Assembly: GCA_900316795.1 (NCBI GenBank)
Contig: ONEF01000004.1
Location: 124,001 to 188,000, forward strand
Reading direction: 5' to 3'
Length of the DNA stretch: 64,000 nucleotides
Source of the DNA: an uncultured Bacteroidales bacterium
GTDB lineage: Bacteria > Bacteroidota > Bacteroidia > Bacteroidales > UBA932
Below the pieces are notes generated by a model. The model had not been told where the DNA came from. It made no database searches and saw only the letters and a list, made by a program, of their open reading frames with translations. Of the stretch, positions 34,414-50,016 are shown piece after piece. Within the stretch, counting starts at the first letter, position 1. Each line of letters starts with the position of its first letter. The position numbers were made by a program, and so were the translations under genes.

Positions 34414-34420
34414 CGCCCAC

Positions 34421-34692
34421 CAAAGTGCTCCCTCCGTCCCTAAAAGTGGGACAGAAGGCGCGTTTTCCCCACCAAAGTGCTCCCACCGTCCCTAAAAATG
34501 GGACAGAAGGCGCATTTCCCCCGCCAAAGTGCTCCCTCCGTCCCTAAAAATGGGACAGAAGGCGCATTTTCCCCTTCAAAGTGCTCCCACCGTCCCTAAA
34601 AATGGGACAGAAGGCGCATTTTCCCCTTCAAAGTGCTCCCTCCGTCCCTAAAAATGGGACAGAAGGCGCGTTTTCCCCTTCAAAGTGCTCCA
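34421..34692 (+). repeat. REP-like tandem array 1 (52-bp period, 5.2 copies)
   Basis: Copies start at 34421, 34473, 34525, 34577 and 34629, with a truncated one at 34681. Each begins CAAAGTGCTCC and contains GTCCCTAAAAATGGGAC, a 5-bp stem palindrome, then AGAAGGCGC. The array lies between namZ and the 3' end of the RAYT-like gene. The spaces between palindromes are themselves repeated, so this is not a CRISPR. Confidence 0.9.
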
Positions 34693-35828: not shown

Positions 35829-36578
35829 TCAGCGAGGCCATTGGCCTAGTTCAAGATCTGAAATTTGTCGGCCCTCTATGCGGAAGCGTAAGGCGGTCCT
35901 GACATTGTGGAATCCCATAATTCCGCAAGCTCCAGGATTCATCACCAGCATTTTGCGTATGTTTTTCTCTGTAGATTCCATCTCACTACCATCTGGAAGT
36001 TTTCCTTCATTGCGGAAATCCATCTCACTACCATCTGGAAGTTTTCCTTCATTGCGGAAATCCTTCTTACTGCCATCTGGAAGTTTTCCTTCATTGCGGA
36101 AATCCATCTCACTGCCATTTGGAAGTTTTCCTTCATTAGAGGCTCCCTTCTCTGAGCTGTCAGAAACAGAGTCTTGTGAGAATGTTCCCTTAGTGGTCGA
36201 TTCCCTTTTGGTGAAGTGGGAATCGTTCATCACACGGAGGATGTGCGAATGGCCGCAGAAGAATAAATCTGGGCGGATCTGGTTTATCAGTTGATAGGCT
36301 TTGTAGTCATACCTGCCTGGGAAGCCTCCGATATGAATCATCAGGCAGTCCAAATCTTCAAGCTTGAAGTGCTGATATAGAGGAACTTCCATACGGATTT
36401 CCTGGTCATCGCAGTTTCCGTAAACCCCTATCACAGGCTTGAAGGCAATCACCTGCTCAAATGTATGGATGCTGCCCCAGTCTCCGCAGTGCAGAACAAC
36501 ATCTACATCTCTGAGAAAATCTTTCAGCTCCGGGCCAAAGTACCCGTGCGTGTCAGATATGAGTCCAACTCTTTTCAT
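35829..36578 (-). CDS. YfcE/MJ0936-type metallophosphodiesterase with repeat insertion
   Basis: 249 residues. Calcineurin-like fold with ISDTHGYFGPE, HCGDWGS, VYGNCDD and FCGHSHILRVM, then MNPGACG near the C-terminus, all metal-ligand motifs of the family. Normal members are about 165 residues. The excess lies between GHSHILRVM and LVMNPGACG, where about 85 residues include four copies of a 14-residue unit (DFRNEGKLPDGSEM). The repeats come from a 42-bp minisatellite and keep the frame. The gene lies between RAYT and the second REP-like array. Confidence 0.88.
   Translation of the reverse strand: MKRVGLISDTHGYFGPELKDFLRDVDVVLHCGDWGSIHTFEQVIAFKPVIGVYGNCDDQEIRMEVPLYQHFKLEDLDCLMIHIGGFPGRYDYKAYQLINQIRPDLFFCGHSHILRVMNDSHFTKRESTTKGTFSQDSVSDSSEKGASNEGKLPNGSEMDFRNEGKLPDGSKKDFRNEGKLPDGSEMDFRNEGKLPDGSEMESTEKNIRKMLVMNPGACGIMGFHNVRTALRFRIEGRQISDLELGQWPR
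35979..36138 (-). repeat. 42-bp minisatellite inside the phosphodiesterase gene
   Basis: Copies start at 35979, 36021, 36063 and 36105; the last is truncated at about 34 bp. Differences are few and conserve the frame. Confidence 0.9.
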
Positions 36579-36610: not shown

Positions 36611-37104
36611 CAAGTGCTCCCTCCGTCCCGGATTTAGGGACAGAAGGCGCGTTTTCCATGCCAAAGTGATCCCTCCGTCCCGGATTCAGGGACAGAAGGC
36701 GCATTTTCCCTGCCAAAGTGCTCCCTCCGTCCCTAAAAATGGGACAGAAGGCGCGTTTTCCCTGCCAAAGTGCTCCCTCCGTCCCGGATTTAGGGACAGA
36801 AGGCGCGTTTTCCCCGCCAAAGTGCTCCCTCCGTCCCGGATTTAGGGACAGAAGGCGCGTTTACAGAAGGCGCGTTTTCCCCGCCAAAGTGCTCCCTCCG
36901 TCCCAGATTTAGGGACAGAAGGCGCATTTCCCCCGCCAAAGTGCTCCCTCCGTCCCGGATTTAGGGACAGAAGGCGCATTTTCCCCTTCAAAGTGCTCCC
37001 TCCATCCCGGATTTAGGGACAGAAGGCGCATTTTCCCCGCCAAAGTGCTCCCTCCGTCCCGGATTTAGGGACAGAAGGCGCATTTCTCCAGTCAAAGTTC
37101 CGCC
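36611..37104 (+). repeat. REP-like tandem array 2 (52-bp period, 9.2 copies)
   Basis: Copies start at 36611, 36662, 36714, 36766, 36818, 36885, 36937, 36989 and 37041, with a partial at 37093. Same unit and orientation as array 1, but most copies have GTCCCGGATTTAGGGAC as palindrome; the third has the array-1 form GTCCCTAAAAATGGGAC. The fifth copy carries a 15-bp internal duplication (ACAGAAGGCGCGTTT type), so it is 67 bp long. Confidence 0.9.
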
Positions 37105-43496: not shown

Positions 43497-43504
43497 CAAA
43501 AGTA
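43497..43504 (-). promoter_or_regulatory. -7 promoter element (TACTTTTG) of the DUF1016 gene
   Basis: Matches TAnnTTTG; predicted start near 43490, leader about 24 nt with AGGAGG before the ATG. Confidence 0.5.
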
Positions 43505-43782
43505 ATTCACGACACAAGGAATCTCCAAACCCAAACGTACAATTGACGCTGTCCGCCCCCAAAGTTTTTACGATTGAAATATGGTCGTGTAGAAGAAAAC
43601 AGATGCACCCTTCAGAAGAGTTTCCTATTACGCAAGTCTTTATCTACAACTCTGCCAGTCTTTTGCAGAGTTGTATCATACTTTTATCACCGGAATTAAA
43701 GCAACAGATTGAAAGTCCGCACTCGGTTCATACTATTAAAGACAAAAGATCTCAGCGACAGTGTATATATCGATTAAAGTTG

Positions 43783-43790
43783 TATCTTTG
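43783..43790 (+). promoter_or_regulatory. -7 promoter element (TATCTTTG) ahead of the 6S-like RNA
   Basis: Matches TAnnTTTG; predicted start near 43797. The nearest ORF start is 226 nt further, so the element most likely serves the structured RNA. Confidence 0.5.
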
Positions 43791-43796
43791 TCAAAA

Positions 43797-44000
43797 GACT
43801 TGACTGTCTTTACATATTTGAACATTTTAGACAAATCTTGTTCTGGGCAACAAAACCGCCAATTTTGAGGAGATTACTCTCCAGCCTAACCGGAAGAAGA
43901 TACAGTCTTGCCAGGGTGCGGACTGTTTGTTTCTTATTTGGTTAGGAGGTGCTTGGCGGTACCTGTTGCCCAAAGGAGAACAGACAGGCCGCTTTTTATT
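43797..44000 (+). ncRNA. Strongly structured RNA, candidate 6S RNA (ssrS-like)
   Basis: No ORF fits this stretch. Hand folding gives a long rod. Closing stem: TGTTC 43839-43843 with GAACA 43978-43982, TGGGCAACA 43844-43852 with 43964-43972, ACCGCCAA 43855-43862 with 43953-43960. A central open region follows with a small 5' hairpin GGAGA/TCTCC (43869-43882). Terminal stem: CCTAACC 43885-43891 with 43940-43946, AAGAA with TTCTT, ACAGTC 43902-43907 with 43921-43926. CTGTCT (43804-43809) can also pair with 43982-43987. Closing stem, central bubble and terminal stem are the 6S RNA plan, and ~190-200 nt fits. 6S RNA binds housekeeping RNA polymerase. I recognise the shape, not the family by sequence. 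Confidence 0.55.
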
Positions 44001-44022
44001 AATAAATAATATAGTATTTATT

Positions 44023-44268
44023 ATGGGATCTAAAGAGATTTATCAAAAGCAAATCATTTCCATTAGAGAAAGAATTGCAAAGGAAAGGGAGCGTAAATCC
44101 TATGACAATCAAAAGCTTCAGGAACGAATCAACAGAGCTACGTCAGTTTCATCCAAAGCCAGTTACAGGAGACAAAAGGTAGATCGGGCTGCTCAACATG
44201 ACAGAGCTATCCAAGGACTACAAAAGCAGCTTGAAACTGCAAAAATGAATTTAGCCAAATGTAGATAA
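44023..44268 (+). CDS. Small coiled-coil protein of unknown function
   Basis: 81 residues, very rich in Lys, Arg, Glu and Gln, helical throughout with heptad-like spacing (IISIRERIAKERERKSYDNQ, KLQERINRA). No domain recognised. The ATG at 44023 is preferred; an extension to 43927 would run through the structured RNA. It lies 9 bp before the PD-(D/E)XK gene on the same strand, so the two are probably co-expressed, and a partner or regulator role is possible. Confidence 0.6.
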   Translation: MGSKEIYQKQIISIRERIAKERERKSYDNQKLQERINRATSVSSKASYRRQKVDRAAQHDRAIQGLQKQLETAKMNLAKCR

Positions 44269-44277
44269 TCAACGATT

Positions 44278-45435
44278 ATGAGCAACTTTACTTTTTCTGA
44301 GATCAACAAGATTTTGGTAAAGTCAAAAACTAAACTCAAAGAAAGCTTTACTAGGGGAGAACAATTCAATATGTTTAAAGCTTGTGGCGTTAATCATTAT
44401 GAAAACACCCACTCTGCAATAGTTGCAGAGTTGTTGAACCCAGACGGAAGTCATGGGCAAAAGGATATGTTTCTTAAACTATTCATTGATAATGTTATAC
44501 CAGATTTCAAGGATTTCAAGACTCAAACGGCGGAGTGTTTTACTGAATATACAATTCCAGGTGGAAGGCGCATTGATATTTTGCTTAGGGATATAGAAAA
44601 GCGAATAATTGTAGTTGAGAATAAAATCTACGCGGCTGATCAATTTGCTCAACTCAAGGATTATTCTGAATATGCATCAAAACAAACAGGACAATACAGA
44701 GTCATTTATCTTACATTGGATGGAAAGGAGGCTTCAGATGAGAGTGCATTTCAAGTCAAGTATTGTAAGGCATCATATAAGGATAACATTATTCCATGGC
44801 TAGAGGAGTGCATAAAGGCCTCGGTTAAAATCCCGACAATAAGAGAAACTCTTATTCAGTATCAGCTTCATTTAAAGCAATTAACCAATCAGGATATGGA
44901 AAAGAAGGAAAAAGAAGAACTGGTCAGTCTGATGATGCATAATGTAGAAGAAATAGAAGCTATCTTTCGAGTTCAGAAAGATTTTCAGATTTCCGTATTA
45001 AATAATGTGAAAGAACAACTGGAGGATTTTTGTTCGGTAAACAACCTGGAATTGGATTTTTCCCCAGAAAAGCTTCTAAACTCTTCAACAGAAAAGGGTT
45101 TCTATTTTAAGCGGCCGGAATGGAAGAAATATGTAATTTGGGTCTATAGCGAGCACCGTGAACCATACGACTTTTATATTGGCATAAGCACCTTTAATGG
45201 TAAAATAAATGAAGAAGAGTATGCAACCATCCGCAAAAAATTGAATTGCTTTGAAGGGCAAGAGTCTCAGACTTGGCCGTGGGGGTGGTCGTATTTAAAA
45301 GAACCTTATAGAAACTGGTGGCTGGGGAATGGTTGTTTTACTGCTATGTTAAATGGAGATTTCTCAAAGTACTTGGAAGAGTATGTTCTATGCATTCTAC
45401 AAGAGCTGGAGAGCTCCAAAATAGCATTACATTAA
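44278..45435 (+). CDS. PD-(D/E)XK nuclease superfamily protein
   Basis: 385 residues. The N-terminal third has the catalytic block: HSAIVAELLNPDGSHGQKD, then GGRRIDILLRDIEKRIIVVE followed by NKIYAADQFAQLKDY, giving the motif-II Asp (RIDI), ExK (VVENKI) and a helix with Gln. This matches the PD-(D/E)XK_4-type group (Pfam PF14281-like), typical of accessory regions. The C-terminal half (about 210-385) is a helical and beta region without recognised domain. Codons are AT-rich. Target and role are unknown; a defence nuclease is a reasonable guess from its setting. Confidence 0.75.
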   Translation: MSNFTFSEINKILVKSKTKLKESFTRGEQFNMFKACGVNHYENTHSAIVAELLNPDGSHGQKDMFLKLFIDNVIPDFKDFKTQTAECFTEYTIPGGRRIDILLRDIEKRIIVVENKIYAADQFAQLKDYSEYASKQTGQYRVIYLTLDGKEASDESAFQVKYCKASYKDNIIPWLEECIKASVKIPTIRETLIQYQLHLKQLTNQDMEKKEKEELVSLMMHNVEEIEAIFRVQKDFQISVLNNVKEQLEDFCSVNNLELDFSPEKLLNSSTEKGFYFKRPEWKKYVIWVYSEHREPYDFYIGISTFNGKINEEEYATIRKKLNCFEGQESQTWPWGWSYLKEPYRNWWLGNGCFTAMLNGDFSKYLEEYVLCILQELESSKIALH

Positions 45436-45477
45436 TATCGCGATAATCATAAAAGTATATATAGTTTAATAACCACT

Positions 45478-46506
45478 ATGAAGATAAAGCACATTATATT
45501 CTTTCTTTTGTTCTGCTCATTAAGTTGCAGTTGCTCACGCAATTACCCGAGCAAGTATGCAGAGGTGTTCAATAATATCGGTGAACAATTAAGCATACCG
45601 CATAGATTTGCATTTGATACTAGATATTATAGGTTAAACACTGTTGTGCTTGACTGCGAGAAATCTGAATTATCTTCTAAACATTTTGATGTTTATAATG
45701 TAATATACGAACTTAGTGTAGAGATACGAAGTGAAAAAGAAATTGAACAAGTTATAGATTCCATAAGAAATTGTCAACTAGAAGATTTAGGCATTCTTGA
45801 AAATACAATTGAAGACTTAAAAGACAGTATTGCTATAGAAAAGGAATCTTGTAATTATAATAGGTTCCTTGCTTTAAGAAAAGATCTAAAAGGCAAAGGA
45901 TTCACAACTATTAATAAAAGTCACAGTGATAATTATGGGAATAGATATGAGGAAGATAATTTCGACGAGGTCGCTAAAAACTTTTTAAAAACCAATTGGA
46001 GCGGATACAGAGAGGACTGTTATGAAACAGATTTTGAAGAATTTAGGCGTATTCTGCATTATGTGGATAGTGAGCGTAAAGCCAGATTCGAAGATATAGA
46101 TGGGACGCGTTTTCTTATAGTGGAGTATTGGTATGAATACAGCATAAAAGATTATCAAATCGACAGCGCATCCCTTTCTTATGAGGTTGGAGACAGGTGG
46201 GACTCGTATGATAGATACAGCTTTAAGAATCAATGGGGAGACAAGTTATTTGACCTAGTAGAAACTCTAGATGAACGGCTTAAAGAAAAGAAAGATCTTG
46301 AGGACAAGGTCAAAGTTCCTTATGAGACCATTATAGATTCCTATAAACAGAAAATGGAAACAATTAAGATAGCAGGTATCGATAAACTATACATTCCTGC
46401 TATTGTATCAATTAACAAAAAAACAAAGGACGCTGACTATCGGTATCCAAAAGGAGGCCCGTCATACACACACATTGAAGCCCAAGAATGGTTAGAAAGC
46501 CAATAA
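45478..46506 (+). CDS. Hypothetical lipoprotein
   Basis: 342 residues with a lipoprotein-type signal (MKIKHIIFFLLFCSLSCSCS). The mature protein is charged and mostly helical in the middle (ELSVEIRSEKEIEQVIDSIR; LKDSIAIEKESCNY) with a Tyr/Asp-rich C-terminal half. No known domain recognised. An ATCGCGAT palindrome lies upstream at 45437-45444. AT-rich like the rest of the island. Confidence 0.6.
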   Translation: MKIKHIIFFLLFCSLSCSCSRNYPSKYAEVFNNIGEQLSIPHRFAFDTRYYRLNTVVLDCEKSELSSKHFDVYNVIYELSVEIRSEKEIEQVIDSIRNCQLEDLGILENTIEDLKDSIAIEKESCNYNRFLALRKDLKGKGFTTINKSHSDNYGNRYEEDNFDEVAKNFLKTNWSGYREDCYETDFEEFRRILHYVDSERKARFEDIDGTRFLIVEYWYEYSIKDYQIDSASLSYEVGDRWDSYDRYSFKNQWGDKLFDLVETLDERLKEKKDLEDKVKVPYETIIDSYKQKMETIKIAGIDKLYIPAIVSINKKTKDADYRYPKGGPSYTHIEAQEWLESQ

Positions 46507-46773
46507 TAGATTAAGCCTGAACCACAGATCTGGTTGATGCTTCTCTAATTTGGGCAAAGCAAATTATTCTTTCCTTTTGGAATCCTGAAGGAACCGCTTC
46601 AGCAGGAAGGCGAGGAAATACGGGAAAGTGTAGAATTTGCCGTTCGTCTACAATGCAGAGCTATCTGGCTATGTTTCAGTGATTTGTATTACTGTTATCA
46701 CATTTTCGGAGCTGTTTTTGGCCGAAAAATCACAAAATCGGAGAGAAATAATGCCAGATAATCACATTTTCGG
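46507..46773. other. Intergenic stretch with direct repeats abutting tsaE
   Basis: ATCACATTTTCGG occurs at 46697-46709 and 46761-46773, with partial copies between (CCGAAAAATCACA, CACAAAATCGG). The second copy ends exactly at the tsaE stop codon. It may be a junction or a decayed mobile-element end. Confidence 0.35.
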
Positions 46774-47226
46774 CTATGAAATCTCTATTGTGCGGCTAAG
46801 GTCGGGGTTGGTGGTGATGGAAACTTTGATGCAGTCTTCAGGGAGTATCTCAGCGATTTTTTCAGGCCATTCGATAAGGCAGAGGCCGCTTCCTGAGAAG
46901 TAGTCTTCCGTGCCGATGTCGTAGGCTTCCTGGAGGCGGTTGATGCGGTAGAAGTCAAAGTGGTAGATCGGGAAACCCTTTGCGCTTTTGTATTCGTTGA
47001 TGATGGTGAAGGTCGGGCTGTTGACGTTGTCCTGTACGCCCAGGGCCTTGCAGATGGCTTTGATGAAGGTGGTTTTGCCGGCACCCATCTTGCCGTAGAA
47101 AGCGAAGATGTTGCTCTGGAGGTCAGACTCTGAGATGTACCGTATGAATTCCTCAGCGACCTTGTCTATCTCTTCAAGGCTGCCGACAGTGAAAGTCTTC
47201 AGTATTGTGCTTCTTCCGTTTTCCAT
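46774..47226 (-). CDS. tsaE: tRNA threonylcarbamoyladenosine biosynthesis ATPase TsaE
   Basis: 150 residues. P-loop ATPase needed with TsaB/TsaD for t6A37 modification of ANN-decoding tRNAs. Walker A AFYGKMGAGKTTFIKAIC, the family SPTFTIINEY and YHFDFYRI motifs, and CLIEWPEKI near the C-terminus. Length is normal. Encoded 12 bp after a small unknown gene. The synthase tsaC is at 50.9 kb in the same window. Confidence 0.93.
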   Translation of the reverse strand: MENGRSTILKTFTVGSLEEIDKVAEEFIRYISESDLQSNIFAFYGKMGAGKTTFIKAICKALGVQDNVNSPTFTIINEYKSAKGFPIYHFDFYRINRLQEAYDIGTEDYFSGSGLCLIEWPEKIAEILPEDCIKVSITTNPDLSRTIEIS

Positions 47227-49020: not shown

Positions 49021-50016
49021 ATGGAACTTTTTTACTCAACAGATATCAGGGACAGGAAAGGCCGTGCCCTTTTTGGGGACAACGTTGCAGAATCTGGAGT
49101 GGCCTCTAGAGTGGTCTTGTCGGCCGCCGAGGCTGAGCATTGTGCAAAGGTGATGCGCCACAAGGAAGGGGATATAGTTTTCATCATCGACGGTAAAGGC
49201 GGGCTTTACAACTGCCGCATAGATAAGATTGTGCTTCCCAAGAAAGGAGAGGCTCATGTGGAGTGTGCGGTACTGGAAGAAAGCCATGGAGTAGGAGGAA
49301 GGAACTATCATCTTGTGATGGCTGTCTGTCCTACCAAGAACATGGACCGTTACGAGTGGTTTGTGGAAAAGGCTACTGAACTCGGGGTAGATCAGATAGT
49401 ACCGGTCATATCAGAGCATTCCATCAGGACATCGGTGAAGAAAGATAGGCTGGAGGCCTTGGCACTGTCCGCTACCAAGCAAAGTCTGAAATCTTATTTG
49501 CCGGAGATTTCGGACAGCATAAGTGTCTCTGATTTCTTGAATAAATGTTCTTGCAAAGACGGAGAAACTTCTGCCCGGCGGATATTGAAACTTATAGCCC
49601 ACTGTGAAGAAGGGGAGAAGAAGACTATCCGCCAGCGTCTTGAAGAGTTTATGAAAGCATACCGGAGGTCTGATGGAATTCCTGGCGGGGATGATTGCCA
49701 GGCCATTCCGGGAGTTGATGGAGTTATAGACGGGGATGGTTGCCAGGCCATTCCGGGAGTTGATGGAGTTATAGACGGAGGTGGTTGCCGGGCCATTCCG
49801 GGAGTTGATGGAGTTATAGACGGGGATGGTTGCCAGGCTTCAAAGGATTTAAGTGTGGTAATCATGATTGGACCGGAAGGGGATTTCTCCACAAGGGAAA
49901 TAGAGCTGGCCTTGCAGAAAGGGTTCCTGCCGGTTACCCTCGGGGAGTCGAGACTCAGAGTGGAAACTGCGGCAGTGGTCTCTGTTTCAGAAATATACTT
50001 TGCATCTCAAGGATAA
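49021..50016 (+). CDS. rsmE: 16S rRNA (uracil1498-N3)-methyltransferase with repeat insertion
   Basis: 331 residues. SPOUT-class enzyme that methylates U1498 of 16S rRNA. It shows HCAKVMRHKEGD, CPTKNMDRYEWFVEKATELG, ATKQSLKSYLPEI, the knot loop MIGPEGDFSTREIELA, then PVTLGESRLRVETAAV. The family is about 240 residues; here ~50 residues of tandem 15-residue units (CQAIPGVDGVIDGDG) sit just before the knot loop, encoded by a 45-bp minisatellite. They keep the frame and lie at a surface-loop position. The start at 49021 fits MELFYS; the longer frame to 48940 overlaps the promoter. Confidence 0.92.
   Translation: MELFYSTDIRDRKGRALFGDNVAESGVASRVVLSAAEAEHCAKVMRHKEGDIVFIIDGKGGLYNCRIDKIVLPKKGEAHVECAVLEESHGVGGRNYHLVMAVCPTKNMDRYEWFVEKATELGVDQIVPVISEHSIRTSVKKDRLEALALSATKQSLKSYLPEISDSISVSDFLNKCSCKDGETSARRILKLIAHCEEGEKKTIRQRLEEFMKAYRRSDGIPGGDDCQAIPGVDGVIDGDGCQAIPGVDGVIDGGGCRAIPGVDGVIDGDGCQASKDLSVVIMIGPEGDFSTREIELALQKGFLPVTLGESRLRVETAAVVSVSEIYFASQG
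49687..49840 (+). repeat. 45-bp minisatellite inside rsmE
   Basis: Copies begin at 49711, 49756 and 49801, with a partial copy before. Near identical; about 3.4 copies in all. Confidence 0.9.

Follow-up and report, generated by a model that had tools for sequence, protein, structure and literature searches.

What is the structured RNA at about 43790-44000 on the forward strand of the window (the whole 64,000-nt stretch analyzed here, from an uncultured Bacteroidales bacterium), and what might it do for the genes behind it? A sequence-only reading had seen in it a rod-like 6S RNA within an acquired island or, failing that, an unknown structured RNA serving a nuclease operon as partner or leader. 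The structure itself is more than a chance fold: 43797-44000 folds at -70.4 kcal/mol (z -3.95), and 0 of 200 dinucleotide shuffles fold as well. Its identity, its distribution and the competing pairings of its 3′ end together suggest an answer quite different from 6S RNA.

Not 6S RNA

The likeness to 6S RNA (RF00013, RF01685) lies in a rod shape with a central bubble and hairpin and in an own promoter at the 5′ end. The window RNA and its relatives differ from 6S in sequence and helices, have a gene directly behind them and reach up to 8 copies per genome. An Rfam scan of the whole window returned two tRNAs and nothing else, and a permissive scan of 43500-44300, with E up to 10, gave two chance matches, neither of them 6S. 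RF00013 has no match anywhere in the genome, and RF01685 has chance-level matches elsewhere and none at 43797-44000.

The genuine 6S gene sits at another locus. RF00013 also matches weakly in another genome of the order (L005), at a strongly folding stretch flanked by zapA and rny; a match to the same model in a sister genome (L004) was dropped as coding sequence without a stable fold. With the L005 rny protein as the query, the zapA-rny place was retrieved for 29 of the genus's genomes, and a typical 6S was found there in the window's genome and in the 27 sister genomes whose sequences were extracted. A covariance model built from 20 sister 6S genes scores the 6S of the window's own genome at 187.4 bits, its sole match in that genome; at 43600-44200, with filters off, its best score is 5.4 bits. 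The search for another 6S gene, which the sequence-only reading had put forward as a check, thus ended with a canonical copy at 187 bits, between zapA and rny on contig C24 (51481-51667, equivalent to L033:1287-1473). This is the conserved 6S place in the group, and it is not where the window RNA sits. Since the Rfam 6S models miss the zapA-rny gene, Rfam-based annotation of the genus will lack 6S. Four independent tests rule out the 6S reading, and with covarying helices that define a different family, even a second, diverged 6S copy has next to no probability.

A widespread family in Bacteroidota

Neither the window RNA nor 20 of its relatives match any Rfam 15 family. blastn found no homologue within the genus, so a covariance model was needed. 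One built from the core of the single RNA (43840-43972) gave 32 hits, spread over 25 of 399 same-family genomes, which have ACAAAACCGCCAAUUUUG and GGUGCUUGGCGGUACC in common and variable hairpins between them. An 18-base motif occurred at 66 stretches of the genome collection; 40 matches in 38 loci, from Alistipes, other Rikenellaceae, Cryptobacteroides, Merdivivens and others, were confirmed by the same model, and the remaining loci, in which the second strand is missing, were set aside as chance. In genome sets drawn as samples, a model refined once detected the RNA in 102 of 393 genomes from Bacteroidales, where one genome may hold as many as 8 copies, and in 13 of 395 from the whole of Bacteroidota; named carriers include Parabacteroides distasonis, Phocaeicola massiliensis and Alistipes. 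The RNA is therefore a member of a widespread Bacteroidota family absent from Rfam 15.

Phage origin was considered and rejected, the window's motif being absent from viral contigs and phage records; the copies carried by eight viral contigs are all of the other subfamily. Tandem RNA copies 260-390 bases apart, with no intervening gene, occur in L071, L072 and L081. The region upstream of the RNA holds, in 11 of 29 loci (among them L065, L066, L067 and L069-L073), a divergent gene that carries the motif STLKRIFGYVK and matches no Pfam family. A literature search covering main texts found no account of this RNA. A human microbiome structured RNA screen (PMC8040213) describes leader-type and palindromic Bacteroidetes candidates; our RNA is akin to these by leader type and could be identical to one of them.

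Conserved helices

The core of the rod described by the sequence-only reading is conserved: its 9-bp and 8-bp stems, bubble hairpin and three-part terminal stem all appear in the base-pair table, with compensatory changes in 68 relatives. All elements are on the forward strand. The 9-bp stem, P2 (43844-43852 with 43964-43972), is paired in 98% of cells, shows compensatory change in 8/8 pairs and stands out in a swap test, in which partner strands are exchanged between copies (z -9.9, 0/2000). The 8-bp stem, P3 (43855-43862, 5′ strand ACCGCCAA, with 43953-43960), is paired in 100% of cells, with compensatory change in 7/8 pairs. The bubble holds a variable hairpin, P4 (43869-43882; helix 3 of the covariation analysis), which is missing from some family members, and the rod is capped by the P5-P6-P7 terminal stem-loop (43885-43946; 43885-43911 with 43918-43946; helices 4-6), in which 87-89% of cells are paired and every pair shows compensatory change.

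The exception is the outermost closing stem (43797-43811 with 43975-43990), which is not conserved among relatives. Its 5′ side corresponds in them to small hairpins, and its 3′ side to a terminator arm whose partner is the rod 3′ strand or the apical strand. In the window, the 5′ hairpins are P0 (GTCAA-aagac-TTGAC, 43790-43804), in the place of which many relatives have, as judged by eye, hairpins of differing sequence, and P1 (GAACA...TGTTC, 43820-43843, in the base-pair table), replaced in relatives by hairpins of the GAAUC-UUCG-GAUUC type. Leader-peptide attenuation was rejected here: the GTG found in some P1 hairpins is unconserved, the hairpin itself conserved.

Covariation in homologues, one of the checks that had been proposed, proved very strong. 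In the 68 sequences, 92.2% of cells pair, versus 62.2% after shuffling, a percentage inflated by the fitting of the alignment to the structure; compensatory changes occur at 42 of 43 pairs; and the covariation score is 0.661, versus 0.175 for shuffled sequences and at most 0.103 for slid partners. The swap test, which is independent of the fitted alignment, gave 0/2000 for each of P2, P5 and P6/P7; like the shuffle test, it ignores relatedness among copies.

A leader before unrelated genes

The promoter that had been fitted to the 5′ end is borne out by the relatives. In the window, a single TAnnTTTG box, the -7 element TATCTTTG (43783-43790, forward strand), lies at the RNA 5′ end, and nearly all complete relatives have such a box 50-85 nt upstream of the core. 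Behind the RNA, a same-strand ORF could be called in 71 of 81 copies, with a median of 54 nt between its ATG and the point where the U-tract starts; the calls were made by script and may have a wrong start, and the other 10 copies lack a clear ORF. The gap between RNA and gene is free of TAnnTTTG boxes in 41 copies. The RNA lies, as an attenuator does, between a promoter and a same-strand gene. In a distant subfamily (L167, L173, L201, L203 and L209), a second C/G-rich, hairpin-like stretch often occurs between the U-tract and the start codon.

The window RNA precedes a three-gene operon on the same strand: an 81-aa gene of no known family (44023-44268), the product of which has no relatives in phages, plasmids, genome contigs or viral contigs; a PD-(D/E)XK nuclease-like gene (PDDEXK_4, PADLOC PDC-S26; 44278-45435); and a gene of no known family (45478-46506), called a predicted lipoprotein gene from its N-terminal sequence. 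Elsewhere, the products include lipoproteins, proteins of nuclease-like, HTH and zinc-ribbon type, and a large protein that has a DUF4112 partner; a Pfam scan left most of those scanned without a family, and a crude test finds a hydrophobic N-terminal segment in 36 of 71. The downstream genes share no function that points to a signal.

This diversity bears on the proposal that the RNA is a leader upstream of a nuclease operon or its partner: the leader is supported, and a specific link to nucleases is not, as the relatives stand before a range of unrelated genes. A functional partnership between the RNA and the encoded proteins, with the RNA as an antitoxin or as a guide or effector RNA of a defense operon, would fit its place before a nuclease of a candidate defense family, the relative in L073 that precedes another PDDEXK_4 protein, and its movement with the operon as one module. 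Across the family, however, the downstream genes are unrelated and most belong to no family at all, and same-genus relatives of the nuclease lack the RNA, on which ground a partnership with the PDDEXK_4 nuclease was rejected; we hold any such partnership to be quite improbable.

The island claim is supported by empty sites in sister genomes, comparison with which defines an inserted module of ~3.2 kb (43577-46776) comprising the leader RNA and the three-gene operon. In four of them (L213, L214, L217 and L218), comM adjoins tsaE. A further genome of the genus (L216) agrees with the window at 98% as far as 43576 and picks it up again at about 46777; its gene order is comM, yhcG, tsaE, with neither RNA nor operon. 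The presence of yhcG there without them means that the RNA-operon module was inserted separately from yhcG. The two yhcG copies are 99.7% identical and the neighboring comM genes 88.5%, which suggests recent transfer. Upstream of the leader, within the module, lies an 11-bp perfect inverted repeat, TACAACTCTGC...GCAGAGTTGTA (43645-43675). Elsewhere in the window, in-frame tandem repeats with units of 42 and 45 bp occur at 35977-36137 and 49686-49838, in phosphodiesterase-like and RsmE-like genes, and arrays of a 52-bp unit with TCCGTCCC...GGGACAGA, at 34416-34691 and 36612-37098, are among the window's strongest-folding stretches.

A constant block followed by variable cargo, its sporadic presence, the tandem copies and the insertion as a module are what one might also expect if the conserved block were a DNA element, such as a recombination or cassette site. 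G-U-tolerant covariation, a promoter and a U-tract are features of an RNA, and a casual, unsystematic look noticed no integrase gene beside the copies; a DNA element in place of a regulatory RNA is accordingly a very improbable explanation.

Competing pairings of the 3′ end

The 3′ end of the RNA has more than one possible partner. It consists of the terminator right arm, or pseudoknot strand, ACAGACAGGCCGC followed by TTTTT (43980-43997), delineated by folding, swap tests and sequence. One partner is the rod 3′ strand (43953-43972), which forms P3 and P2 and, as shown by folding, can serve as the left arm of an alternative terminator. In the window's subfamily, this strand can pair with the sequence before the U-tract, and the resulting hairpin (median -19.8 kcal/mol in a 47-copy set) is followed by the U-run. 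The swap test for this helix alone is weak (z -1.8, 81/2000) because both arms are nearly invariant. The other partner is the apical strand, UGCGGACUGU (43917-43926), which is complementary to 43983-43992. This complementarity is present in 41 of 41 copies (native -15.7 versus permuted -13.4, swap test 0/5000) and recurs in an independent set of 35 distant copies (-16.9 versus -12.2, 0/5000); the window's pairing, at -10.8 kcal/mol, is the weakest of its set. Being complementary to the apical strand, the 3′ end is similar to the 5′ strand of the apical hairpin and a competitor of it; the helix between the 3′ end and the apical strand abuts the U-tract. The sequences thus contain an intrinsic terminator before the gene, one arm of which has an exclusive, covarying alternative partner.

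A third strand lies upstream of the promoter. In 37 copies of the window's subfamily, an element (AAGCAGTCCGCAC and variants) shows complementarity to the apical strand (native -20.7 versus -11.6 kcal/mol with the upstream sequence shuffled; swap test 0/2000). The one position that varies does so as expected of G-U-tolerant pairing: opposite an A in the RNA stands T, and opposite a G stands C or T. Of the 37 copies, 20 have a second TAnnTTTG box no more than 45 nt upstream of the element, versus 1.1 expected. The window's element, AAAGTCCGCACTC (43712-43724, forward strand), has a 10-bp complementarity to the apical strand, is farther from the promoter than elsewhere and has no clear second box. 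Folding of longer transcripts gave mixed results, with no one consistent effect of the element.

In many copies, rod and terminator are near each other in energy, and for the short transcript the rod is the predicted stable fold in most copies. The latter would suit a stand-alone, trans-acting sRNA with its own promoter and terminator, the downstream gene being expressed separately or by leak-through, as would the promoter at the 5′ end, the compact covarying fold, the strong terminator with its U-tract and the tandem copies with no gene between them. Yet the gene behind the RNA almost always shares its strand and begins within tens of bases, with no promoter in the gap, and a free sRNA gene would have no reason to hold its place before unrelated genes; we consider such an sRNA unlikely.

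A putative transcription attenuator

The family, its conserved helices, both alternative pairings, the promoter and the fixed same-strand leader position are computed directly from the genomes, and from them we posit that the RNA is probably a cis-acting transcription attenuator, the 5′ leader of the operon for the 81-aa protein, nuclease and lipoprotein. Transcription would start at ~43796 from the TAnnTTTG promoter, and the transcript would fold into the rod (P2 and P3), capped by the variable hairpin P4 and the conserved terminal stem P5-P7. The dozen nucleotides just ahead of the U-tract could then pair with the apical strand, excluding P7, or, in the window's subfamily, alternatively with the rod 3′ strand, excluding P2 and P3. 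In one state, a helix would abut the U-tract, and RNA polymerase would stop ahead of the gene; in the other, presumably the ON state, the terminator arms would be kept apart, and the gene would be transcribed. A cellular signal, be it a ligand, a protein or an RNA, would set the balance and thereby control termination. In the least certain step, a longer transcript may gain a competing strand from the upstream element, which mimics the 3′ end and is often preceded by a second promoter.

A family so widely distributed, with several copies per genome and diverse targets, is more suggestive of a global signal than of feedback by one pathway. A more far-reaching version of the attenuator, which we regard as conceivable and on balance somewhat doubtful, is a three-way switch in which the hairpin containing the apical strand, the 3′ end and the 5′ copy of the 3′ end in the second-promoter transcript all compete for that strand. 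The pairing of the apical strand with the 3′ end would in that case be a pseudoknot abutting the U-tract, and the RNAs a phylum-wide class through which a single global signal would reach many unrelated genes of accessory, surface and signaling function.

The putative attenuator shares with transcription attenuators and terminator-type riboswitches the leader position, a strongly conserved core and, ahead of the gene, an intrinsic terminator with an arm open to mutually exclusive pairings. It differs from them in having no recognized aptamer or leader peptide, no Rfam match and very diverse downstream genes, and in a 3′ arm predicted to pair with the apical strand, forming a pseudoknot when the rod is formed. 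Second-messenger riboswitches, such as the c-di-GMP classes, likewise stand, several to a genome, ahead of genes that are unrelated to one another and often have surface or signaling functions; the resemblance is one of copy number and targets only, the Rfam scan having found no match in sequence or structure to the c-di-GMP classes. In the conserved rod, the strand GGCGGTAC is similar to GGCGGTAG, the ops core of RfaH/NusG-paralogue leaders, and we take it to be a short look-alike; those leaders and the window family have no operon type in common.

Bacteroidota is a dominant phylum of the human gut, and to our knowledge few classes of regulatory RNA have been described in it. The RNA reported here is present in about a quarter of the sampled Bacteroidales genomes and also in named gut species, and its covariation is strong enough for direct tests of the structure and of the switch. 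If it is an attenuator, it would define a regulon made up mostly of unnamed genes, and identification of the signal would open those genes to study.
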